This document shows, piece by piece, positions 1 to 27,808 of a DNA stretch of 27,808 bases. The notes below the pieces were generated by a model. It was given only the letters and a program-made list of their open reading frames with translations. It did not search any database and had not been told where the DNA came from. This stretch comes from a virus: positions 1 through 27,808 of IMG/VR virus record IMGVR_UViG_3300023278_002726. One strand, given 5' to 3'. Numbering within the stretch: the stretch's first letter is position 1; the number at the start of each line of letters is the position of its first letter. The position numbers and the translations under genes were made by a program.

Positions 1-52
1 ATGAAAGAACTTCTTGAAGAAGTGAAAAAAGACCTTGAAAACTTGCGTTCTG
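1..52. repeat. Terminal overlap, left copy (genome closure)
   Basis: These 52 bases recur at 27757-27808 with a single difference (A at 27, G at 27783), a silent change in a lysine codon. The reading frame of the scaffold gene runs unbroken across the junction. This is what a circular genome opened inside a gene looks like; a short direct terminal repeat is the alternative. Without reads the two cannot be told apart. Confidence 0.9.
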
Positions 53-330: not shown

Positions 331-1242
331 ATGGCAGGATTAGTCATCACAGGTTCAACTTACGCAGGGGAATCAGCAGGTCAGTACATAGGTACTGCAT
401 TATTATCTGCAGCATCACTTGACAGTGTTACTGTATTAGAAAACATAAAATTCAAAAGAGTATTAAACAAAGTAGCAGGTGCAGGTCTTGTGACTGCAGC
501 AGATTGTGATTTCTCAAACGCAGGGACATTGACACTGACTGAATCAGTTCTTTCACCAACTGCATTGAAAATCAACATTGACCTTTGTTCTGATACAATG
601 GCAGAAGATTGGATGGCTGCAAGAATGAAAGCAGGAAGAAACAACCAACAAATTCCACAAGATTTTGAACAATTTGTGATTGGTTATTTAGGCGAAACAA
701 TCGCAGACCATGTTGAAACAAACTTTTGGAATGGTGCTGCATCAGGTGGTGGATTCCAAGGTCTTGCAACAGACACAACAGGTGTTCTTGCAACAAATGG
801 TGATGTGATTGACATTGTTCCAACAACTGTGACAATTACAAATGTATTGACTGAATTGAACAAAGTGAAGAATGCAATTCCTGATGCAGTTTATGGAAGT
901 GCAGATTTGAACATCTACATTTCAACAAAAATCATGAGGTTGTACATTGAGAAAATGGCAAATCTTGGATATTTAAACCAATACCATGTTGGTGCTGCAC
1001 CATTAAACTTTGAAGGCATCAATTTAGTACATGCACCTGGTTTAGCAGACAACAGAATGGTTGCTGCAAGAGAATCAAATGTTTTCTTTGGTACTGACTT
1101 ATTCAGTGACATGACACAATTAACAATTTTACCGATGAATCAAATTGATGGTTCTTCAAATGTTAGATTTGTTGCAAAATTCAGTGCAGGTGGTCAAGTT
1201 GCAGATGGTTCACAAGTAGTTTATTACGGAACTTCAGCATAA
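331..1242 (+). CDS. Major capsid protein
   Basis: This 303-residue protein should form the icosahedral shell (HK97-like fold). It directly follows the scaffold gene and precedes a strong terminator, the normal setting of the most abundant virion protein. The N-terminus 'MAGLVITGSTYAGESAGQYI' and the segment with 'DLCSDTMAEDWMAARMKAG' match a capsid family I know from Bacteroidota phages. There is no obvious cleaved delta domain, in keeping with a separate scaffold. The start at 331 follows an A-rich leader with stops in several frames and no Shine-Dalgarno sequence. Composition in the first 150 bases is closer to ordinary AT-rich DNA (more TA and CG) than in most of the window. The assignment rests on family resemblance and gene order. 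Confidence 0.8.
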   Translation: MAGLVITGSTYAGESAGQYIGTALLSAASLDSVTVLENIKFKRVLNKVAGAGLVTAADCDFSNAGTLTLTESVLSPTALKINIDLCSDTMAEDWMAARMKAGRNNQQIPQDFEQFVIGYLGETIADHVETNFWNGAASGGGFQGLATDTTGVLATNGDVIDIVPTTVTITNVLTELNKVKNAIPDAVYGSADLNIYISTKIMRLYIEKMANLGYLNQYHVGAAPLNFEGINLVHAPGLADNRMVAARESNVFFGTDLFSDMTQLTILPMNQIDGSSNVRFVAKFSAGGQVADGSQVVYYGTSA

Positions 1243-1868: not shown

Positions 1869-1896
1869 AAAGGTGCAGAAATGCATCTTTTTTTTT
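1869..1896 (+). terminator. Rho-independent terminator after the tail tube gene
   Basis: A 9-bp stem with one G-T pair (1869-1877 with 1882-1890) is closed by a GAAA tetraloop and runs into nine T (1888-1896). It lies about 20 nt after the stop of the tail tube gene. This is the clearest intrinsic terminator in the window. It separates the capsid/tube pair from the next unit, whose promoter-like element follows at 1917. Confidence 0.85.
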
Positions 1897-2577: not shown

Positions 2578-4626
2578 ATGGCAAAGAAAAAGACAAAAGT
2601 TGTTTCAGATAAAACAACAAAGAACAACATTCCTTTGATGAATGTCCAATTCAGTGAAATGACATCACCAAAAGTGTCTGAAACAAGTCAGGGTGATTGG
2701 ATTGAATATGGAACAAGTGATTTGAAAAATCAATATCCACAATTTTTGATTGAAATCTACAACAATAGTTCAACACATTCAGCAATTGTGAATGCAACTG
2801 CACAAATGATTGCAGGTCGTGGATTCGTTATTGAAAACACTGAAATTCAAACTGCAGAAACCTTGTCAAAAGCAAGGAATTTCATGAATAAGGTGAACAG
2901 GGATGATGAATCACTGCATGATGTTTGGTCAAAGCTTTCACATGACATCAAATTGCAAGGTTCATTTGCAGTCAATGTGATTTGGTCAAAAGACAAAACA
3001 AGAATTGCTGAATTGTATCATGTACCTGTTGAACATTGTCGTGCAGGAAAAGTGAATGAACAAGGAAAGGTTGACACATGGTGGATTTCTGCAGATTGGT
3101 CACAATATAGAAAATCAGAATTTGAACCAAGACCTGTTGCAGCATTCAACACTAATGACAGAACAGAATCTTCACAATTGTTTTATGGTGGAATCTACAC
3201 TGCAGGTCAAGAAATTTATTCTGCACCTGACTACAGGGCTGCAGTGCCATGGATAGTGACAGACAAATTGACTGCAGAATTTCACATGAACAACATTGCA
3301 AATGGTTTTGCACCTTCAATGTGGGTGAATTTCAACAATGGGATTCCATCACAGGAAGAAAGATTTCAGATTGAAAATTCTATCAAGTCCAAATTCTCAG
3401 GAGTGCAGAACGCAGGCTCAATGGTTTTAACTTTCAGCGATGACGCATCCAAAAAACCTGACATCACACCAATTCAACAAAGTGATGCAGACAAACAATT
3501 TGTTGTGTTGAATGAATTGACAATTCAGAACCTTTTCATTTCACACAGGGTGACATCACCACAACTTCTTGGTGTAAAAACTGAAGGTCAACTTGGTGGA
3601 AGAAATGAATTGCAAGAGGCATTTGAATTGTACATGAACACAGTTGTTGAACCATTTCAGATGGTTCTGATGAGTTTTGTGGACACAGTGATGTCAACCA
3701 ACCATTTGAATGTGAAGTTGTCTGTGGAACAAGTTAAACCAATCAATTCAAGATTTGGAACAGATGTGTTGAAAGAGGTGTTGACAGTTGATGAAATTCG
3801 TGCAGAACTTGGATTTGAACCATTGCCAAAAGAAGATGAAACAGTTGAACAAGAAAACACAGAATTGTCACTTAAAAAATGGGATGATTCACTTGTGAAA
3901 TTGGATGAAGATTGCAAAAAAAAAGATGGATCTTGTGATGATTGTTCCTGTGAACAATATGACATGAATGATGACATTGCAGATGAACTTCTTGAAAGAC
4001 TTGATGAAGTTGCACAAGTTGTGAATGTTGATGAATGGGAAGAAATCCATGAATCAGAAGTTTTTGATGCAGAAGGTGAAGATGAAAACATGTCAAATGT
4101 TGAACTTGCATCCATTCCATTCATTCCAAAAGGTGACAAAAGAAAACCAACACCATTTGGTGATTCTTTCATGTTTCGTGTTTTGTACAGATACAAAGGT
4201 GGATTGAAATCAAATTCCAGAAAGTTTTGCAAAAAGATGGTTGACAATTCCAAGTCAAAAGGGTATGTGTATAGAAAAGAAGACATTGACACACTATCAT
4301 CAAAGCCATTGAACAAAGGATTTGGTGCAGGTGGTTCAGACACTTATGACATATTTTTGTGGAAAGGTGGTGTGTATTGTCACCATAGTTGGTCAAGGGT
4401 TGTTTTCATGCGAAGGAGAGTTCCAAAAGATGCAAATCTTGGATTCAATGTGATTGATGAAAATGGAAACAAAATCAATGTTCCTGCAGGTGAACTTTTG
4501 CCAAAAACACTTATCAAATATTATAAAAATAGTACAAACAAAGCATTGAAATCTGCAGGTGTTGTCCTTGAAGACAAGGTTGCACAGACAAGACCGATTG
4601 ACATGCCAAACCAAGGTAAAAAATAA
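2578..4626 (+). CDS. Portal protein with an extra C-terminal domain
   Basis: This 682-residue protein should form the ring at the capsid vertex through which DNA enters and leaves. Residues from about 1 to 430 look like a phage portal: 'VNATAQMIAGRGFVI' near the N-terminus, 'DKQFVVLNELTIQNLFISHR' and 'SPQLLGVKTEGQLGGRNEL' in the wing/stem region. An acidic linker follows (about 430-515, with a small Cys-rich patch KKKDGSCDDCSC). Then comes a separate C-terminal domain (about 520-682) with 'GSDTYDIFLWKGGVYCHHSW'. Portals of this host group sometimes carry such a tail; its role is not known to me. The protein is longer than a minimal portal (around 400-500 residues) because of that domain. A short patch near 3410-3446 has three CpG, unusual for this genome. 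Confidence 0.85.
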   Translation: MAKKKTKVVSDKTTKNNIPLMNVQFSEMTSPKVSETSQGDWIEYGTSDLKNQYPQFLIEIYNNSSTHSAIVNATAQMIAGRGFVIENTEIQTAETLSKARNFMNKVNRDDESLHDVWSKLSHDIKLQGSFAVNVIWSKDKTRIAELYHVPVEHCRAGKVNEQGKVDTWWISADWSQYRKSEFEPRPVAAFNTNDRTESSQLFYGGIYTAGQEIYSAPDYRAAVPWIVTDKLTAEFHMNNIANGFAPSMWVNFNNGIPSQEERFQIENSIKSKFSGVQNAGSMVLTFSDDASKKPDITPIQQSDADKQFVVLNELTIQNLFISHRVTSPQLLGVKTEGQLGGRNELQEAFELYMNTVVEPFQMVLMSFVDTVMSTNHLNVKLSVEQVKPINSRFGTDVLKEVLTVDEIRAELGFEPLPKEDETVEQENTELSLKKWDDSLVKLDEDCKKKDGSCDDCSCEQYDMNDDIADELLERLDEVAQVVNVDEWEEIHESEVFDAEGEDENMSNVELASIPFIPKGDKRKPTPFGDSFMFRVLYRYKGGLKSNSRKFCKKMVDNSKSKGYVYRKEDIDTLSSKPLNKGFGAGGSDTYDIFLWKGGVYCHHSWSRVVFMRRRVPKDANLGFNVIDENGNKINVPAGELLPKTLIKYYKNSTNKALKSAGVVLEDKVAQTRPIDMPNQGKK

Positions 4627-4628
4627 CT

Positions 4629-5210
4629 ATGGCAACACAAGTCCTTTACATATCAGAAAACAGGTTGAAAGAATCAACCACAATCAACCAAAATGTTGAC
4701 ACAGAATTGTTGATTCCAAACATCAAGATTGCACAGGACAAATATATCTTGACTGCACTTGGTTCAAAATTGGATGAACATCTTCAAAGTCTTATTTCTG
4801 CAGGAACACTTGATGATGCAGGAAATGAAAACTTTGAAAAGCTTGTGAACACATACATTCAACCTGCACTTGTTCAGTGGACATTGTATGAATCAATCAT
4901 TTTTCTTGGTTTCAAATTTAAGAACAAGGACATCATGCGAAAATCAAGTGAAACAGGACAACCTGCATCATTGGATGATTTGAAATTCTTGCGTAATGAA
5001 ATCCAAAACACTGCACAATGGTACACAGAAAGGTTGATTGACTATTTATGTCACAACAACAACCTGTTTCCACAATATTCACAGAACACAAATGAAGATG
5101 TCAGTCCATCAAGACACAACTATTTCAATGGAATGAATTTGGAACTGCAACCAAAAAGAAGAATCAACAACATCACCTTGGATGATTTTCTTCCATCAAA
5201 TTTGAAGTAG
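4629..5210 (+). CDS. Probable head-tail connector (adaptor) protein
   Basis: This 193-residue, largely helical protein starts 2 nt after the portal stop. The pattern 'NVDTELLIPNIKIAQDKYIL' followed by a 'LGSKLDEHL' segment and a long helix with 'YESIIFLGFKF' resembles the helical head-completion proteins that dock on the portal (HK97 gp6 / SPP1 gp15 type), common directly after portals. There is no catalytic motif. The C-terminus 'NNITLDDFLPSNL' is an exposed tail. I am fairly sure of a neck role and unsure of the exact component. Confidence 0.6.
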   Translation: MATQVLYISENRLKESTTINQNVDTELLIPNIKIAQDKYILTALGSKLDEHLQSLISAGTLDDAGNENFEKLVNTYIQPALVQWTLYESIIFLGFKFKNKDIMRKSSETGQPASLDDLKFLRNEIQNTAQWYTERLIDYLCHNNNLFPQYSQNTNEDVSPSRHNYFNGMNLELQPKRRINNITLDDFLPSNLK

Positions 5211-13451: not shown

Positions 13452-13454
13452 TTA

Positions 13455-13511
13455 GTTGATTAATATGTCTGCAATATACACACTTTTAATTAATTACCAA
13501 CAATAATCAAC
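13455..13511. repeat. Inverted repeat spanning the divergent promoter region
   Basis: GTTGATTA (13455-13462) and TAATCAAC (13504-13511) are exact 8-bp inverted copies separated by 41 bases, in the gap between the first leftward gene and the first rightward gene. Paired half-sites at this spacing could bind a regulator that controls both blocks. Chance occurrence in AT-rich DNA is possible. Confidence 0.4.
13471..13500 (-). promoter_or_regulatory. Candidate leftward early promoter (Bacteroidota type)
   Basis: On the minus strand, TTG (13498-13500) is followed after 19 bases by TATATTGC (13471-13478), close to the Bacteroidota TTG / TAnnTTTG promoter pattern, about 20 bases upstream of the ATG at 13451. 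It is the only such pair noticed in this divergent gap. No equally good rightward promoter was found there. Confidence 0.35.
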
Positions 13512-13549
13512 AAATTATTTTTACTTATTCTTTTTTGTATCTTCCCATC

Positions 13550-13867
13550 ATGAAAAGTGAACATTTTTTTGAGAAAAACAGGAATGGATCAGTGACTGAA
13601 AATGTCAAAACAAGTGACAAAATCATCAGAATTGTTGATGAAGTTGAACAAATGTTGTTGCACAAGAACAAATCTTATGGTGATTCTGCAACCAAACCTG
13701 CAAACATATTTGCCAAAGGAAAAGCATCTGAAAACATCTGTTGCAGAATAGATGACAAACTGATGCGAATCAAAAACAAGGGAATAAATACAGACACAAT
13801 TGACACAGTCAAGGATTTGATTGGATATTTTGTTTTGTTGTTGATTGCAATTGAAGATGAAAATTGA
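13550..13867 (+). CDS. DUF1599 / Nmad1-like nucleotide-modification-associated protein
   Basis: A 105-residue protein with the pattern of DUF1599, named 'nucleotide modification associated domain 1': 'KNKSYGDSATKP' (39-50), 'RIDDKLMRI' (66-74) and 'DLIGYFVLLL' (89-98). The family is linked by genome context to enzymes making modified DNA bases and resembles MazG-like all-alpha pyrophosphohydrolases, but the exact reaction is not settled. ATG at 13550 is chosen; upstream extension uses only TTG. It is the first rightward gene, and its end overlaps rusA by 11 nt. Two DNA methyltransferases in the same genome make a role in DNA modification attractive but unproven. Confidence 0.7.
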   Translation: MKSEHFFEKNRNGSVTENVKTSDKIIRIVDEVEQMLLHKNKSYGDSATKPANIFAKGKASENICCRIDDKLMRIKNKGINTDTIDTVKDLIGYFVLLLIAIEDEN

Positions 13868-14204
13868 GTTAGCACCATTTCCAAAACCAAGGATGACACA
13901 ATCAGACAAGTGGAAAAAAAGACCTGTTGTTGTGAAGTATTGGAATTGGAAATCTTCATTGCAAAAATATGGCATCAACTTTGATTCAGGTCGGGTTGAT
14001 GTCATTTTTTTTGTGCCAATGCCAAAGTCATGGACAAAGAAGAAATGTGTGGAAATGGATGGAAAACCACATCAATCAAGACCTGACATTGACAACTTCC
14101 TGAAAGCTTTGTTTGATGCAGTATGTTCTGAAGATTCACACATTCACACAGTCACTGCAAAAAAAGTGTGGTCAAAAAAAGGAATGATTGAATTGAACAT
14201 TTAG
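13857..14204 (+). CDS. rusA: RusA-family Holliday junction resolvase
   Basis: A 115-residue endonuclease that cuts four-way DNA junctions, needed after annealing-driven recombination and before packaging. Family features are the N-terminal 'PFPKPRMTQSDKW' segment and the metal-binding region 'RPDIDNFLKALFDAV' (75-89) with acidic residues Asp77, Asp79 and Asp87, followed by 'EDSHIHTVTAKKVW'. Length is typical (about 115-130). ATG at 13857 gives MKIELAPFPKPRMT; earlier TTG codons are less likely. It overlaps the Nmad1-like gene by 11 nt and precedes promoter-like copy 2. Confidence 0.88.
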   Translation: MKIELAPFPKPRMTQSDKWKKRPVVVKYWNWKSSLQKYGINFDSGRVDVIFFVPMPKSWTKKKCVEMDGKPHQSRPDIDNFLKALFDAVCSEDSHIHTVTAKKVWSKKGMIELNI

Positions 14205-14228
14205 TTCATTTTTATATTTAAAGAAAAG
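14193..14228 (+). promoter_or_regulatory. Promoter-like element, copy 2 (TTG-AACA-17-TATATTTA)
   Basis: TTG (14193-14195) directly followed by AACA (14196-14199) lies 17 nt upstream of TATATTTA (14213-14220). This fits the Bacteroidota TTG-N17-TAnnTTTG pattern best of the five copies. The ATG of the sigma-like gene is 21 nt after the box start. The left part overlaps the end of rusA. Confidence 0.65.
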
Positions 14229-14233
14229 ACACA

Positions 14234-14821
14234 ATGGAAATGACATCTGAATTTTATGGAAAATTGTTGGTTGCTGCAAGGAACATCACAAACAATCACC
14301 AAGACCATGAAGAACTTCTTCAGGAATGCATGGTTGCACTTTATGAAAAAGACAAAGATTTCATTCAGGAACTTCATGACAACAAATCATTGCAATTCTA
14401 TTGTGTCAGAATAATGTTGAACATGTGGAATTCATCAACATCTTCATATCATTACAAATTCAGATTTCAAAAGAAATTCATGTTTGAATTCTTTGAAGGT
14501 GTTCCTGATGATTATTGTCCAAGTAATAAAAATGTTTTGACACCTACAATCCAAGAAATCAGAAACCAATTTCACAATGACTTTCTTGATGATGCAGTTG
14601 ACACAATGCATGATGTTCTTGGTGAATTGTATTGGTATGATTCAGAACTTTTCAAATTGTACAAATTTGGATCAAACAATGGAAAAAGATGGACATTGAA
14701 TTCACTTGCAGAAAAGACAGGAATTTCAAGAACATCAATTTTTGACACAACACACAGAGTGATGAAATACTTGGACAAACGAATGAAAGAAGAAACAACA
14801 CTTTTGACCTATGACATTTAA
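14234..14821 (+). CDS. Sigma-70-like transcription factor
   Basis: A 195-residue protein with two parts resembling sigma factors. Residues about 8-85 look like region 2: 'AARNITNNHQDHEELLQECM' followed by 'LQFYCVRIMLNMWNSSTSSYHYKFR', which compares with the core-binding and -10-recognising helices. Residues about 150-190, 'SLAEKTGISRTSIFDTTHRV' and 'MKYLDKRM', form a helix-turn-helix like region 4. The middle is acidic. It lacks regions 1 and 3, like ECF-type factors. It would direct host RNA polymerase to phage promoters. Its own gene sits behind copy 2 of the repeated promoter element, hinting at autoregulation. Distant homology is judged by eye. Confidence 0.65.
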   Translation: MEMTSEFYGKLLVAARNITNNHQDHEELLQECMVALYEKDKDFIQELHDNKSLQFYCVRIMLNMWNSSTSSYHYKFRFQKKFMFEFFEGVPDDYCPSNKNVLTPTIQEIRNQFHNDFLDDAVDTMHDVLGELYWYDSELFKLYKFGSNNGKRWTLNSLAEKTGISRTSIFDTTHRVMKYLDKRMKEETTLLTYDI

Positions 14822-15928: not shown

Positions 15929-16264
15929 ATGAGAAAAAATGACAAAGGAACATTCATTGAAGTGTTCAGCAAAAAGGCTGCAAACATTGGTGCAACTTGC
16001 AGAGCAATTGGAATTTCAAGACAGACATTCTACAATTGGAAAAATGATGACCAAGATTTTGCAGAAAAGATTTTCAATGCACAAGAAGATTTACTTGACA
16101 ATGCAGAATCAAAGCTGCAGGAACACATCAACAATGATGACAAGATTTGCACAATGTTCTTTTTGAAAACAAAAGGAAAGTCAAGAGGTTATTCAGAAAG
16201 ACAAGAAATTGAACACCAAGGAAAGAATGTGAACATTGAAATCCAACTTGAAAAACCTGAATGA
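15929..16264 (+). CDS. terS: Terminase small subunit
   Basis: A 111-residue protein with an N-terminal helix-turn-helix, 'NIGATCRAIGISRQTFYNWK' (about 19-38), of the type used by small terminase subunits to bind the packaging site. A helical middle (about 45-85) would form the oligomer ring, and 'FFLKTKGKSRGYSERQEIEH' is a frequent signature in HTH-type small terminases. The basic/acidic C-terminal tail probably contacts the large subunit. Its stop overlaps the large-subunit start (ATGA at 16261), and that partnership strongly supports the call. Confidence 0.88.
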   Translation: MRKNDKGTFIEVFSKKAANIGATCRAIGISRQTFYNWKNDDQDFAEKIFNAQEDLLDNAESKLQEHINNDDKICTMFFLKTKGKSRGYSERQEIEHQGKNVNIEIQLEKPE

Positions 16265-17574
16265 AACCACAGTTGACAAAACAACAGAATGAATGCATGT
16301 GGCATTTGTTGAATGATGACAAGACAACTGAAGTCTTGTTTGGTGGTGGTGCAGGTGGTGGAAAATCATTCATCCTTTGTGCGTATTCAATCACCATGTG
16401 TTTGAAGTATGAAGGAATCAGGGGATTAATTGGAAGGTCTAAATTGGACACATTGAAGAAGACAACACTGAACACATTTTTTGATGTCTGTGGTCAATGG
16501 GGATTGGTTAGTGGTGAACACTACACATTCAATGGTCAGTCAAACATCATTTCATTTTACAATGGTTCTGAAATCATTTTGAAAGATTTGTTTCTTTATC
16601 CATCAGACAGGAATTTTGATTCACTTGGATCGTTGGAAATCACATTTGCTTGTGTTGATGAATGCAACATGATTGTTCAGAAAGGTGTGCAAGTTCTTGC
16701 ATCAAGGATTAGATACAAACTTGATGAATTCAATCTTGTTCCAAAGATATTGATGACATGCAATCCTGCAAAAAATTGGGTATATTCTGATTTTTACAGA
16801 CCATGGAAAGATGACAATCTTCCAAATCACAGAAAGTTCATTCAGACATTGGTTGATGACAATCCATTTGTTTCAAGACATTACAAAGACCAATTGAACA
16901 AATTGGACATTGTGTCAAAACAAAGGTTGTTATTTGGTGACTGGGAATTTGATGAAACCAAAGATTCATTGATTGAATTCAATTCAATTTCACACATGTT
17001 CAATTTCACAGAAAAGTCAAGTGGTGAAATGTTCATCAGTTGTGATGTTGCAAGGTATGGTGCAGACAAGACTGTGGTGATGCTATGGAAAGACCTATCA
17101 GTCAAGAAAATTGTTGTTCTTGAAAGGTCATCAGTTGTTGAGGTTGCACAATTGGTTCAGGATTTGATGAATGAATACAGTGTCAGAAGTTCCAATGTTG
17201 TGATTGATTCAGATGGTGTTGGTGGTGGTGTTTCAGACCTATTGAAAGGAACAAAATCATTTGTGAATAATGCAAGACCATTGATGAACCAAAACTTCAA
17301 CAACATCAAGTCACAGTGTTTCTTCAAACTTGCAGACTTAATCAATGCAGGTGAATTGTCTGTGAATTGTCCTGATTCAAGAATTCAACAATTGATTGTT
17401 GATGAATTGTCAGTCATCAAAAGGAAAGACATGGACAAAGATGGAAAGATGCAAATCATTCCAAAAGACCAAATGAAGGATTTGATTGGAAGGTCACCTG
17501 ACTTTGCAGATTGTTTGATGATGAGGATGTATTATGAATTGAATCCAAATGTTGGAAAATACTTTGTTCAATAG
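16261..17574 (+). CDS. terL: Terminase large subunit (packaging ATPase/nuclease)
   Basis: A 437-residue motor that pumps DNA into the head and cuts it. Walker A is GGGAGGGKS (28-36), Walker B 'ITFACVDE' (127-134), and 'KILMTCNPAKNWVYSDFYRP' is the coupling-motif region. The nuclease half has 'ISCDVARYGADKT' (about 258-270), 'VIDSDGVGGG' (about 316-325) and 'SPDFADCLMM' (about 413-422), supplying the RNase H-like acidic residues. Length is typical. All catalytic residues appear intact. It lies directly after terS and before the tail genes rather than before the portal, which is far away at 2578. Confidence 0.95.
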   Translation: MKPQLTKQQNECMWHLLNDDKTTEVLFGGGAGGGKSFILCAYSITMCLKYEGIRGLIGRSKLDTLKKTTLNTFFDVCGQWGLVSGEHYTFNGQSNIISFYNGSEIILKDLFLYPSDRNFDSLGSLEITFACVDECNMIVQKGVQVLASRIRYKLDEFNLVPKILMTCNPAKNWVYSDFYRPWKDDNLPNHRKFIQTLVDDNPFVSRHYKDQLNKLDIVSKQRLLFGDWEFDETKDSLIEFNSISHMFNFTEKSSGEMFISCDVARYGADKTVVMLWKDLSVKKIVVLERSSVVEVAQLVQDLMNEYSVRSSNVVIDSDGVGGGVSDLLKGTKSFVNNARPLMNQNFNNIKSQCFFKLADLINAGELSVNCPDSRIQQLIVDELSVIKRKDMDKDGKMQIIPKDQMKDLIGRSPDFADCLMMRMYYELNPNVGKYFVQ

Positions 17575-17615: not shown

Positions 17616-18284
17616 ATGAAGACAATCACAATCACAGACAATGACAAGGTGTTCAACTACACAATTCCAGAAACATGGAAACAAGTGTCATTGGCACAAT
17701 ATCAGAAACTGATGTCAGTTGAAATGGATGAAATGACTGAACAACAATTGATGTTTCATTTGATTGAATCATTGATTGAAATTCCTTCACAAAAGATTGT
17801 GGATTTGAAGAAGTCAGATGTTGAAGAAGTGTTCAAACATTTGATGGAACTTGCACAATCCAAACCATCAGAACATTTGAATTTGATTGTTGAAATTGAT
17901 GGTGTTGAATATGGATTCAATTCAAAGCTTTCAGACATCACCATTGGTGAATTTGGTGATTTGGACACATACCTTCAAGATGGTTTCAAGAACCTTGACA
18001 AAGTGATGTCAATCCTTTACAGACCTATTGTTGACAAGGACAAGAAATCATTCAGGGTTGAAAAATATGACTTTGACAAGTGTGATGAAAGAACAGAATT
18101 GTTCAAAAACAAAATGTCAATAGATTCAATTTATGGATGTCTGTGTTTTTTTTTGAATTTAGGTCAAGAATATACACTGACTTCAATCCATTATTTGAAG
18201 AAACAAAACAAGAAAAAGGAATCAAAACAGATGAAGAAAGTTTTGGAAACAAGTGGGGATGGTATGCAATCTTCTACAAATTGA
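17616..18284 (+). CDS. Tail assembly chaperone, zero-frame product (gpG-like)
   Basis: A 222-residue acidic, helical protein beginning MKTITITDNDKVFNYTIPETW, which I associate with tail assembly chaperones of Bacteroidota phages. Such proteins coat the tape measure during tail assembly and are made as a short form and a frameshifted long form. Here the frame crosses nine T (18146-18154), and a -1 frame opens just past it with a chaperone-like C-terminal half. Unshifted translation gives a basic tail ('KKQNKKKESKQMKKV') of 43 residues after the slip site. It is separated from terL by copy 3 of the promoter-like element. The tape measure gene is 6.3 kb away, unusual for a chaperone. Confidence 0.75.
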   Translation: MKTITITDNDKVFNYTIPETWKQVSLAQYQKLMSVEMDEMTEQQLMFHLIESLIEIPSQKIVDLKKSDVEEVFKHLMELAQSKPSEHLNLIVEIDGVEYGFNSKLSDITIGEFGDLDTYLQDGFKNLDKVMSILYRPIVDKDKKSFRVEKYDFDKCDERTELFKNKMSIDSIYGCLCFFLNLGQEYTLTSIHYLKKQNKKKESKQMKKVLETSGDGMQSSTN

Positions 18285-18864: not shown

Positions 18865-18893
18865 TTGATTGTCAGTGAGTTAAGCAAAACACT

Positions 18894-18931
18894 TGACATC
18901 AATTTGACAACAAAATGACATCAATTTGACA
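18894..18931 (+). repeat. Tandem direct repeat in a non-coding gap
   Basis: TGACATCAATTTGACA occurs exactly twice, at 18894-18909 and 18916-18931, with a 22-bp period (about two helical turns). It lies upstream of the GTG-start gene at 18975, within the 110-base gap 18865-18974. It could be a regulator site or promoter upstream element. Similar words are common in this genome's coding sequence, so chance is not excluded. Confidence 0.6.
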
Positions 18932-18974: not shown

Positions 18975-19526
18975 GTGAAGGCATTAATTAGAACTGAAAA
19001 AGTTTTGAATTTATTCGCAAAAAAAGTGGTGAAAGATGCACAAAGCGAATTGGCAAGACAAGGAAAGAACACTTCAGGTGAACTTTCACAGTCACTTGGG
19101 TACACTATCACCAAAAATCAAAATGGTGGTCTGTCGCTTGAGTTTATTGGCTCTAATTACGCAAAATTTGTGGATCAGGGAATGCAAGGGAAATTCAGTT
19201 CTGCAAAAGCACCAAATTCACCTTATAGATTTGGAAGTGGTTCTGCAAGTGGTTCATGGAAATCATTCACTGCATCACTTGACAAATGGATTGTGAAAAA
19301 AGGTCTTGCAGGAATTCGTGATGAAAAAGGAAGATTTGTTTCAAGGAAGTCATTGCGATTTTTGATTCAAAGATCCATTTATCTGTATGGTGTCAAGCCA
19401 TCATTCTTCTTTTCTAATCCTTTAGAAGTTGCCAAAAGTGGCTTAACAAAGAAAATTGGCAAAGCATTCATGGAAGATGCAATTGATTTCTTGGAACAAA
19501 TGAACAAAACAAAATCAAAAAAATAA
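18975..19526 (+). CDS. HK97 gp10-like neck/tail-joining protein
   Basis: A 183-residue basic protein starting at GTG (no nearby upstream ATG in frame). 'NYAKFVDQGMQGKFSSAKAP' (about 60-79) and 'YGVKPSFFFSNPLEVAK' (about 138-154) are features of HK97 gp10-like minor tail/neck proteins, where 'FVDxG' and the C-terminal 'P.FF' segments are conserved. It probably helps join tail to head. Composition in the first 200 bases (four CpG, more TA) is more ordinary than in the neighbours. GTG start and the tandem repeat upstream set it apart. It ends 3 nt before the next gene. Confidence 0.6.
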   Translation: MKALIRTEKVLNLFAKKVVKDAQSELARQGKNTSGELSQSLGYTITKNQNGGLSLEFIGSNYAKFVDQGMQGKFSSAKAPNSPYRFGSGSASGSWKSFTASLDKWIVKKGLAGIRDEKGRFVSRKSLRFLIQRSIYLYGVKPSFFFSNPLEVAKSGLTKKIGKAFMEDAIDFLEQMNKTKSKK

Positions 19527-24607: not shown

Positions 24608-26244
24608 ACATTGACATTGTTGTCAATGATGGAAAAGCAAAACAATCACTTGACAAGGTAACAAAATCAACAGGTGATTTGAACAAAGAATCACAACAAT
24701 CACTTGACAATTTTGGTGCATTTGGTTTGACACTTGGTGGTGTGAAAACTGCATTTGCAAAAATTATTCCAACATCAAAACTATTATTCAAGTCATTGAA
24801 AATGGGTTTGATTTCAACAGGAATTGGTGCATTTGTTGTTTTGATTGGTTCACTTGTTTCATACTTTACAAACACACAAAAAGGTGCAGACAAACTTGCA
24901 GTTGTGTTTGCAGGTCTTGGAACTGCAGTTGCAGTCATTACAGACAGAGTTTCACAATTTGGTGAGGCAGTCACACAATTTTTCACAGGTGACTTCAAAG
25001 GTGCAGCAGAAACAGTCAAAGGTGTTGTTTCAGGAATTGGTGAAGAAATAAAAAATGAAGTTGCAGCAATCACAGAAATCACAAAAAGAGTACAGGAATT
25101 GCGTGATGTTGAAAGGGATTTTGGTGTTGAAAGAGCAAAGACAAACCAAGAAATTGCAAAAGCAAGACTTCTTGCAGAAGATGAAAATCTGACACTTCAA
25201 GAAAGAATCAAACATCTTGAAACTGCAAACAAATTAGAACTTGAAACAACAGAAGATGCAATAAAACTTGCAGAAGAAAAACTTCTTTTGAAACAAAGAG
25301 AAGTTGACCTTGGTGAATCTATGGCAGAGGATTTGGATGAAGTTGCACAATTAGAAATTGCACTGATTGACCTGCAAACACAGTCATTCAGCACAAGAAA
25401 AAGACTTGCAACAGGAATTGAAACATTGAGAGTTGAACAAAGAACCAAAGAAAAAGCAGATGCAGATGCAAGACAAAAAGAAATTGATGATGAACAAAAA
25501 GCATTGGACAAAGCTGCAGAAGATGATGAAAAAAGATTGAAAAAAGAAGTTGCAGAACAAAAGAAAGCAGAAACAGAAAGACAAGCAATCAGACAAAAAA
25601 GGTTGCAAGATGCAACAATACTTGCACAGGCAGAACAACAACTTGAAATGGCAACTTTTGATGCAGTGAAAACAGGTCTTGATGTTGTCAAGAATGCATT
25701 GAAAGAAGGTTCAAAAGCACAAAGGAATTTTGCACTTTTTCAAATTGGTGTGGACACTGCAAAAGCAATTTCAACACTTGTTTCAGGTTCTGAAATAGCA
25801 GCAGCTCAGTTTGCTGCAGCAACAGGGCCAGCAGCACCATTTACCTATGCAGCAACAAAGATTTCACTTTATGCAACAGGTCTTGCGTCAATTATGGGAA
25901 ACATCAACCAAGCAAAAGAATTGCTTTCATCAGAACCTGCATTTGCAAGTGGTGGAATGGTTGGAGGTTATGGATCAGGAACATCAGATTCTGTTTCTGC
26001 AAGACTTTCAAAAGGTGAATCAGTAATCAATGCAAGGTCAACTTCAATGTTTCAACCTTTATTGTCTGCAATGAATGTTGCAGGTGGTGGTGTTGGATTT
26101 GCAAGGGGTGGTGTTGCAGGTGGTTCATCTATTCCAACCAATGCAAGTGCATTCATGTCACCTGTCAAGACTTATGTGGTGACTGATGAAATGACAAATT
26201 CACAAAATCAACTTGCATCAATAAGAAGAAAAGCAACATTCTAA
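24586..26244 (+). CDS. Tape measure protein
   Basis: A 552-residue protein with hydrophobic segments at about 65-115 ('LISTGIGAFVVLIGSLVSYF', 'LAVVFAGLGTAVAVITDRV'), a long charged coiled coil (about 160-345, Ala/Glu/Lys/Gln-rich) and a second Ala-rich hydrophobic stretch (about 385-440). The C-terminal 'FASGGMVGGYGSGTSDSVSA' followed by 'RLSKGESVINARSTSMFQPL' is a hallmark of tape measure proteins in this host group. Tape measure length sets tail length; at about 0.15 nm per residue this predicts a short tail of roughly 80 nm. The gene lies after the hub/tip genes. Confidence 0.88.
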   Translation: MAEKQTINIDIVVNDGKAKQSLDKVTKSTGDLNKESQQSLDNFGAFGLTLGGVKTAFAKIIPTSKLLFKSLKMGLISTGIGAFVVLIGSLVSYFTNTQKGADKLAVVFAGLGTAVAVITDRVSQFGEAVTQFFTGDFKGAAETVKGVVSGIGEEIKNEVAAITEITKRVQELRDVERDFGVERAKTNQEIAKARLLAEDENLTLQERIKHLETANKLELETTEDAIKLAEEKLLLKQREVDLGESMAEDLDEVAQLEIALIDLQTQSFSTRKRLATGIETLRVEQRTKEKADADARQKEIDDEQKALDKAAEDDEKRLKKEVAEQKKAETERQAIRQKRLQDATILAQAEQQLEMATFDAVKTGLDVVKNALKEGSKAQRNFALFQIGVDTAKAISTLVSGSEIAAAQFAAATGPAAPFTYAATKISLYATGLASIMGNINQAKELLSSEPAFASGGMVGGYGSGTSDSVSARLSKGESVINARSTSMFQPLLSAMNVAGGGVGFARGGVAGGSSIPTNASAFMSPVKTYVVTDEMTNSQNQLASIRRKATF

Positions 26245-26272: not shown

Positions 26273-27355
26273 ATGGACAAAAAACCATTCAAAATTATTG
26301 AATTAGTAATTGATGAAGAAAATGAAGATGTGTCAATTGATGCAATCAGTCTTGTGACTGAACCTGCAATCATGGTTGATTTTCTCTATTTCAATAAGCA
26401 AAAAAAATCAAATGTTTGTCTTGCAAAATTAGATGAAGAACAACAGATGTTGGTTTCACCTGCATTGATTCCAAACAAACAGATTTTCAGAGTTGGTCAA
26501 GATGGTCAAGAATACTATGTGTATTTTTCAAAAGAAACAGTTCGAAAATCTGCACATTCTTATTTGAAATATCAGAACAACCACAATGCAACCATTCAAC
26601 ATGAATCAAAGGTTTCAGGTGTTTTCACAGTGGAATCTTGGATTGTTGAAGACAAGGAAAATGACAAGTCAACAAAGTATGGTTTTGATGTTCCTGAAGG
26701 CACATGGATGGTTGCAATGAAGATTGAAAATGATGAAGTGATTCAAGGCATCAAAGATGGTGTTTTGAAAGGTCTGTCAATTGAAGGTTTCTTTGTTGAC
26801 AAGATGCAAAAGATGTCAAGTGAAAAGATGGAACAGATTGGTGAAATGGATGGTTTTCCAATATTTGACACCAAAGAATCTGCAATTGAATATGCAAAGA
26901 CAATTGGTTGTGATGGATTCCATTCACACATTCTTGATGATGGATCAGAAGTCTTCATGCCATGCACAGACCATGAAGTTCTTGATGCATTGGTTGAATT
27001 GATTGAAGAAGAAGAAATGAAAGACATCTTGATGGAAAAACATGAATTTGCATCCTACACAAACTATCCAAAAGGTGCATCTGCAAATGCAGAAAAAGGA
27101 ATGATGGAAAATGAAGAAAGAGGAAACAAATGTGCAACACAAGTTGGAAAAATTCGTGCATCACAATTGGTTGCAAGAAAACCGATTTCATTCAAAACTG
27201 TGAAAAGGGTTTATTCCTATTTAAAAAGGGCAAAGACTTATGATTCAGGAAATTGGAATGATTGTGGAACAATATCATTTGCACTTTGGGGTGGTGATGT
27301 CATGTTGAGGTGGTCAGAAAAAATCATCAAACAAGAAGAAAACAAAACAAAATAA
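26273..27355 (+). CDS. XkdF-type prohead protease with an extra C-terminal domain
   Basis: A 360-residue protein. The first 185 residues match XkdF-like putative serine proteases (S78-type head maturation enzymes): 'AISLVTEPAIMVDFLYF' (25-41), a His-containing 'NNHNATIQHE' (about 102-111) and 'VIQGIKDGVLKGLSIEGFFV' (about 155-175, with the candidate catalytic Ser). A second domain (about 260-355) carries 'ASANAEKGMMENEERGNKC', 'QVGKIRASQLVARKPIS' and 'ALWGGDVMLRWSEKII', a module often attached to phage proteases or other head proteins, with unknown role. It sits before scaffold and capsid genes, as a maturation protease should. Confidence 0.8.
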   Translation: MDKKPFKIIELVIDEENEDVSIDAISLVTEPAIMVDFLYFNKQKKSNVCLAKLDEEQQMLVSPALIPNKQIFRVGQDGQEYYVYFSKETVRKSAHSYLKYQNNHNATIQHESKVSGVFTVESWIVEDKENDKSTKYGFDVPEGTWMVAMKIENDEVIQGIKDGVLKGLSIEGFFVDKMQKMSSEKMEQIGEMDGFPIFDTKESAIEYAKTIGCDGFHSHILDDGSEVFMPCTDHEVLDALVELIEEEEMKDILMEKHEFASYTNYPKGASANAEKGMMENEERGNKCATQVGKIRASQLVARKPISFKTVKRVYSYLKRAKTYDSGNWNDCGTISFALWGGDVMLRWSEKIIKQEENKTK

Positions 27356-27387: not shown

Positions 27388-27808
27388 ATGGATTTGAAAG
27401 ACAGATTAAAAATGATGCTTGGAATTGAAGAAAACACTGAAGAAGTGACTTTGATGCTACAGGCAAGACTTGAAGATGGAACAATCATTTCATCAGATGC
27501 AGAAGAAATGGCAACAGGGATTGTCATCAATGTTGTTGCAGAAGATGGTTCAGTTTTTCCATTAGCAGAAGGAAACTACATCTTGGAAGATGGTGGTGAA
27601 TTCAGTGTTGATTCTGAAGGTGTTGTTCTTGAATTCAATCCATCAGAAGAAATTGATGAAGTGACTGAAGAAGATGCAACAGAAGATGAAGTTGATGCAG
27701 AAGAAGAAGTTGAAATGTCAGAAAATTCTGCAATTCTTGATGCAGTTGGAATGGTAATGAAAGAACTTCTTGAAGAAGTGAAGAAAGACCTTGAAAACTT
27801 GCGTTCTG
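27388..27808 (+). CDS. Head scaffolding protein, N-terminal part (continues at 1)
   Basis: The frame is open to the window end and continues in frame at base 53 (or 1), giving 223 residues in all. The N-terminal part has 'LEDGTIISSDAEEMATGIVI' and 'AEGNYILEDGGEFSVDSEGV', two beta-rich motifs of a scaffold family found between protease and capsid genes in Bacteroidota phages, then a very acidic linker (about 86-110). The C-terminal coiled coil and basic tail lie in the part at 1-303. It starts behind promoter-like copy 5. Scaffold proteins guide capsid assembly and then leave the head; the call rests on order and composition. Confidence 0.8.
   Translation, partial: MDLKDRLKMMLGIEENTEEVTLMLQARLEDGTIISSDAEEMATGIVINVVAEDGSVFPLAEGNYILEDGGEFSVDSEGVVLEFNPSEEIDEVTEEDATEDEVDAEEEVEMSENSAILDAVGMVMKELLEEVKKDLENLRS
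27757..27808. repeat. Terminal overlap, right copy (genome closure)
   Basis: Right copy of the 52-base overlap with 1-52, differing only at 27783 (G instead of A). See the left copy. If the molecule is circular, the unique length is 27,756 bp. Confidence 0.9.

Follow-up and report, generated by a model that had tools for sequence, protein, structure and literature searches.

A predicted sigma factor and its probable late promoters in a family of marine flavobacterial phages

The question raised by this locus is what a sigma-70-like protein of 195 residues does in a phage genome where its gene lies directly behind one of several copies of a short promoter-like element. The stretch examined here (hereafter the window), a virus record in IMG/VR, is 27808 bases long with 34% G+C, and a first-pass annotation had proposed that region-2-like and region-4-like parts of the protein make it a sigma factor, that it takes over the other copies of the element, and that it does so after a switch initiated by the host. 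We regard it as very probable that the protein is a dedicated late sigma factor reading promoters of the form AACAwww-N10-TATATTTAAA, in the manner of gp36 of phiEco32 or gp47 of 7-11, and the switch fares less well than the assignment of the protein and of its promoters.

The ends of the window (1-52 and 27757-27808) form a repeat of 98% identity, and the gene starting at 27388 runs past the window end while relatives of its product also match positions 1-303; the record is thus close to a full circle or a terminally redundant genome. The leftward genes between 7209 and 13451 encode an ERF protein, a DUF3127 protein (single-strand binding according to the annotation of phage P12024S), a DnaA-C-like protein and two methyltransferases, and by this content we consider them early. 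The rightward genes encode RusA, the sigma factor, terminase, tail proteins, protease, scaffold/capsid, portal and an M15 peptidase (Table 1).

Table 1. Position, strand and context of the features discussed in the text.
Feature	Position	Strand	Remarks
Predicted phage sigma factor, ECF-like architecture	14234..14821	+	195 aa; regions 2 and 4 only
Parts of the sigma factor			region 2.2-like DHEELLQECMVALYE; region 2.4-like NSSTSSYHYKFR; region 4 at residues ~112-190
RusA-like resolvase gene	13857..14204	+	last codons hold the TTG earlier read as a -33 box
Terminase large subunit	16261..17574	+	synteny anchor for the sigma gene ~2 kb upstream
Probable major capsid gene	331-1242		reached from the scaffold-like gene 27388-end
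Putative late-promoter core TATATTTAA	1934..1942	+	box AACAAAA 1917-1923; unit 1957-2133 / 2130-2576 / portal 2578-4626
Putative late-promoter core TATATTTAA	14213..14221	+	before the sigma gene; box AACATTT 14196-14202
Putative late-promoter core TATATTTAA	17598..17606	+	box ACTAAAA 17581-17587; between terminase and gene 17616-18284
Putative late-promoter core TATATTTAA	26252..26260	+	box AACATTC 26235-26241; before the capsid protease gene 26273-27355
Putative late-promoter core TATATTTAA	27363..27371	+	box AACAAAA 27346-27352; before the scaffold-like gene 27388-end
Terminator-like hairpin GGTGCAGAAATGCATC, then T9	1872..1896	+	directly upstream of the 1934 element

The sigma reading frame can be taken as real, since it is included in the codon-usage gene call and is kept at 95-99% in five other contigs. 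Its sequence match to known families is weak: Pfam Sigma70_r2 is reached at E 4e-4 and 20.5 bits, below the curated cut-off of 24 bits (E 1.5e-4 for the best relative), and the match to PHROG 1740 ('RNA polymerase sigma factor') has E 0.005; among curated families, no Pfam entry is reached above its cut-off and the PHROG matches are weak. A profile search of PDB sequences likewise gave no significant sigma match, with a region 4 chain of rpoD reaching E 0.66. The fold, however, is clear. An AlphaFold model built on 28 relatives, which took the place of an earlier 10-sequence model, has a mean pLDDT of 68.5 (about 80-94 in the region-4 part) and consists of two helical parts, with helices at 5-66 and 106-190, joined by a linker (70-111) of low confidence. 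All 50 of the PDB matches listed are sigma factors, the best among them being sigmaE (6jbq_F, Z 9.6). The helix-turn-helix of region 4 (model residues 114-190) superimposes on 2h27_D, sigmaE region 4 on -35 DNA, with an rmsd of 2.1 A over 69 residues, and on 7lq4_A equally well (69-70 residues for the two), and the structural alignments to sigma factors begin at residue 1, which covers region 2; the large inter-domain rmsd in these alignments reflects a linker whose position is not fixed. A length under about 200 residues, regions 2 and 4, and a short linker are the layout of the ECF (group 4) sigmas. The model thus bears out the two-region architecture proposed earlier, and confirms the product as a sigma-70-family protein on the strength of its predicted fold. 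The segment most conserved among the sigmas of this family, N-x-x-x-S-x-T-S-x-Y-x-Y-K, follows the expected region 2.3, and from its position after the Sigma70_r2 match we infer that it is region 2.4.

When both strands of the window were searched, TATATTTAA was found in five copies, all on the plus strand and none more than 25 nt ahead of the called start of a rightward gene, against an expectation of 0.06 copies for the window as a whole; the largest count in 200 shuffles was 1. The upstream placement of all five has a Bonferroni-corrected p of about 7e-6, and the word ranked top in an unbiased count of upstream 9-mers; a de novo ZOOPS-EM motif search returned no usable motif, and it was unbiased word counts together with equivalent positions in relatives that worked. 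At positions -17 to -14 before TATATTT stands AACA (4/5) or ACTA (1/5), and given this fixed spacing the promoter looks bipartite and can be written AACAwww-N10-TATATTTAAA; when 28 distinct elements drawn from several sigma clades are compared, they show a similar upstream box. The five copies head structural and packaging units, namely those running from 1957 to portal, from sigma to terminase and from 17616 into the tail genes, and those of protease and scaffold/capsid, and none faces the leftward early-strand genes of the window. The copy after terminase is the most widely conserved in the family. Immediately before the 1934 element, and before several elements of relatives, stands a terminator (the same order is seen in G021, G022, G027, G032 and group II, the latter comprising G023, G024, G025, G026 and G028), as expected where transcription restarts.

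Some further features of the window are recorded here. A candidate sixth copy, TATATAT before gene 1308, was rejected as it is not conserved in G012; a hairpin, GGAACAGGGCATTGTGTCCTGTTCC followed by TTTATATATTA, occupies 1268-1303 before the same gene. A short inverted repeat, TGAACATTTAGTTCA, lies at 14194-14208 within the spacer of the sigma-gene promoter, with one arm base different in L004-L006. Iterated TTGACAtcaa repeats at 18893-18931, upstream of gene 18975-19526, are perhaps an operator, and similar TTGACA stretches occur in L016, L020 and G011 (L124).

The switch proposed in the first-pass annotation, in which the sigma gene is first transcribed by host sigma at a TTG-N17-TAnnTTTG hybrid promoter and the phage sigma then takes the other copies, draws on an element directly before the sigma gene and on a TTG at N17 that is indeed present in the window clade. 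We nevertheless consider it unlikely. The copy before the sigma gene had been taken as the best fit to this hybrid form, but the -7-like part reads TATATTTA in all five copies and the Bacteroidota box TAnnTTTG is found in none, so that this copy, lacking the G like the other four, is no closer; it also shares the AACA box with three of them. The TTG is a Leu codon in the C-terminus of RusA (...IELNI, then stop) and is absent from L020, whose sigma is 70% identical. The self-amplification that formed part of the proposal is plausible in the window clade and in L020, which also has TATATTT before its sigma gene, but does not extend to distant clades, where no TATATTT stands close before the gene. 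As the sigma gene begins 29 nt after RusA and no terminator was found in the gap, read-through from the divergent early region (13452-13549) may be the simpler source of the first sigma. In five genomes listed from the distant clades, a conserved TATAAT stands 5-6 nt before the sigma start codon (L111 10257, L113 740, L115 13558, L120 9078, L133 9993), which suggests that a promoter of host type gives rise there to a leaderless sigma message.

Relatives of the sigma factor fall at 95-99%, 70% (L020) and 31-37% identity, and their genes lie upstream of terminase, about 2 kb off, wherever the contig includes terminase. The family was widened by a second scan with the capsid protease as query, in which a sigma homologue was present in 13 of 13 records of at least 23 kb; for this family of 28-38 kb phages the earlier remark that small phages rarely carry a sigma factor is not supported, and a search for a sigma-less phage within the family found no near-complete example. 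The second-round records without a sigma match (n=12) are all under 21 kb and are probably fragments. No significant match to the sigma of the window or of L018 was found in a cultured phage collection, and a scan of genome contigs with A1 gave no relative; L007-L010, from the first sigma scan, were rejected as chance matches inside a terminase. The cultured Nonlabens phage P12024S shares protease, DUF6712 and capsid genes with the family, and its gp33, for which the annotation reads 'containing Sigma-70 region 2', precedes terminase as in the window; this protein of 160 aa is, however, too divergent to match the sigma profile, and in the P12024S genome TAnnTTTG is enriched and the excess of TTTATATTT only slight.

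Relatives sharing no more than 31-37% sigma identity with the window have the same element, at equivalent positions. Upstream-region word counts were compared against dinucleotide shuffles: TTTATATTT occurs 4 times in window upstream regions against 0.04 expected (0/300 shuffles), and was likewise reached in 0/300 shuffles in G001, G004, G005, G007, G010, G011 and G012, while TAnnTTTG is not enriched upstream in the window nor in excess in the sigma-bearing low-G+C relatives. The reverse-complement word, AAATATAAA, shows no enrichment in low-G+C sigma-bearing genomes. The terminase-related, sigma-less controls instead show TAnnTTTG (seen/expected 6/0.7 in G015, 8/1.3 in G016, 9/1.3 in Flavobacterium phage 11b and 10/1.6 in Cellulophaga phi10:1) with TTTATATTT at background, a comparison in which sigma presence is confounded with ancestry because the two groups are different phage families; sigma-less G017 and P12002L gave no clear TAnnTTTG excess. 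At the site following terminase, TTTATATTT or something close to it is present in the low-G+C phages with the sigma, and TAACTTTG in L034, L035, L036, L037, L038 and L041.

The main new evidence that the other copies are promoters for the phage factor, as had been supposed, is that sigma and element change together across relatives. Sigmas with SxTSxYxYK pair with TATATTT/TTTATATTT at equivalent positions, with clade-specific tails AAAA, TATAkT and ACTA. G031, whose segment reads SRNSKYYYTY, pairs with TATATATTA (3 seen, 0.04 expected), and GTTATwTA occurs in two or more copies in 5/5 group II genomes, whose sigmas are without the SxTS motif, as against 0/16 others; since the genomes used to derive the G031 and group II motifs also served for counting them, these counts are descriptive, and it is the contrast between groups, not the counts, that is the evidence for co-divergence. 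By sequence comparison, change in the predicted promoter-reading segment is accompanied by a change in the element (TATATATTA, GTTATwTA), and the window sigma probably recognises TATATTTAA. The GC-rich clade (G008, G009, G014) is a weaker case, with near-identical region 2.4 residues, a looser element, TCTATTTkAkAGC, and some excess of TAnnTTTG; in the family members G029 and G030 neither word is in excess. L122, which belongs to this clade and to the same phage family, has 56% G+C, suggesting a different host lineage, and carries TCTATTT elements at 4950, 6449 and 11797, each 6 nt before a GTG start.

Two other accounts of the elements were weighed against a late sigma. That they serve a primary or alternative host sigma, the phage protein having some other role, might be argued from the fact that TATATTTA equals the TAnnTTT of the Bacteroidota -7 box save for the last base, and that F. 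psychrophilum has several sigma motifs (PMC9723704). This is quite improbable in our estimation, as the G is missing from all copies, TAnnTTTG is what the sigma-less phages with related terminase carry instead, and the element changes along with region 2.4 of the phage sigma. We give still less credence to the notion that the elements are A/T-rich leader signals for translation initiation. They are close to start codons, and A-rich leaders matter in Bacteroidota, which are without Shine-Dalgarno sites; yet anywhere from 5 to 36 nt separate element and start codon, where a small gene comes in between the element keeps its place at the head of the operon, terminators directly precede several elements, only a few genes per genome have one, and a second box stands at fixed spacing.

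For a dedicated late sigma, the sequence of events would be as follows. Early genes, the first sigma included, would be read by host sigma, the latter probably through read-through from the rightward early unit 13550-RusA-sigma. The two-domain sigma would then bind host core RNA polymerase and direct it to the AACAwww-N10-TATATTTAAA promoters, from which the packaging genes and sigma itself, the post-terminase tail genes, capsid protease, scaffold/capsid and portal/lysis genes would be started; in the window clade, the element before the sigma gene would add self-amplification.

The T4 late promoter consists of a -10-like element, TATAAATA. Phage late sigmas are already known in phiEco32 gp36 and 7-11 gp47 (PMC8948821) and in T4 gp55 (PMC2988020). 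Like the window protein, gp36 and gp47 are small phage sigmas dedicated to middle/late promoters, and there, too, related phages are reported to have different elements at similar genome positions (PMC8948821). They belong, however, to podophages of E. coli and Salmonella with elements tAATGTAtA or GTAAtg-(16)-aCTA (PMC8948821), no sequence relation to the window sigma family was seen, and gp36 is without region-4 homology, in contrast to the window protein with its region 4 fold. T4 gp55 is likewise a small phage sigma for late genes, but works with the sliding clamp gp45 and with gp33 (PMC2988020, PMC7892883). The ECF sigmas (E. coli sigmaE; M. tuberculosis sigmaH and sigmaL), which also have regions 2 and 4 only, are the best structural matches, and differ in that the window protein is phage-encoded, shares about 10-20% identity with them and has no anti-sigma factor that we could see. 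Start sites of the phiEco32 and 7-11 sigmas lie 6-9 nt from the element (PMC8948821); with such spacing, many messages of the relatives may begin at or adjoining the ATG.

Our literature search found nothing on late transcription control in phages of marine Bacteroidota, which seems to be uncharted, and what is new, as far as our searches reach, is the sigma family and its place in Bacteroidota, together with the element and several pairs that have diverged jointly. We lean, if only slightly, towards the broader view that in this family of marine flavobacterial phages a core late sigma and its promoters have diversified together into several mutually distinct pairs (TATATTT, TATATATTA, GTTATwTA and TCTATTTkAkAGC), the promoters lying so near the start codon that many late messages would be leaderless. 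A predicted sigma, predicted promoters in the window and natural variants that change together make the specificity of region 2.4 directly testable, and the element could predict late operons in uncultured marine phages. If the broader view is true, the family would constitute a naturally occurring set of orthogonal sigma-promoter pairs from Bacteroidota, and a possible supply of such pairs for Bacteroidota genetics.
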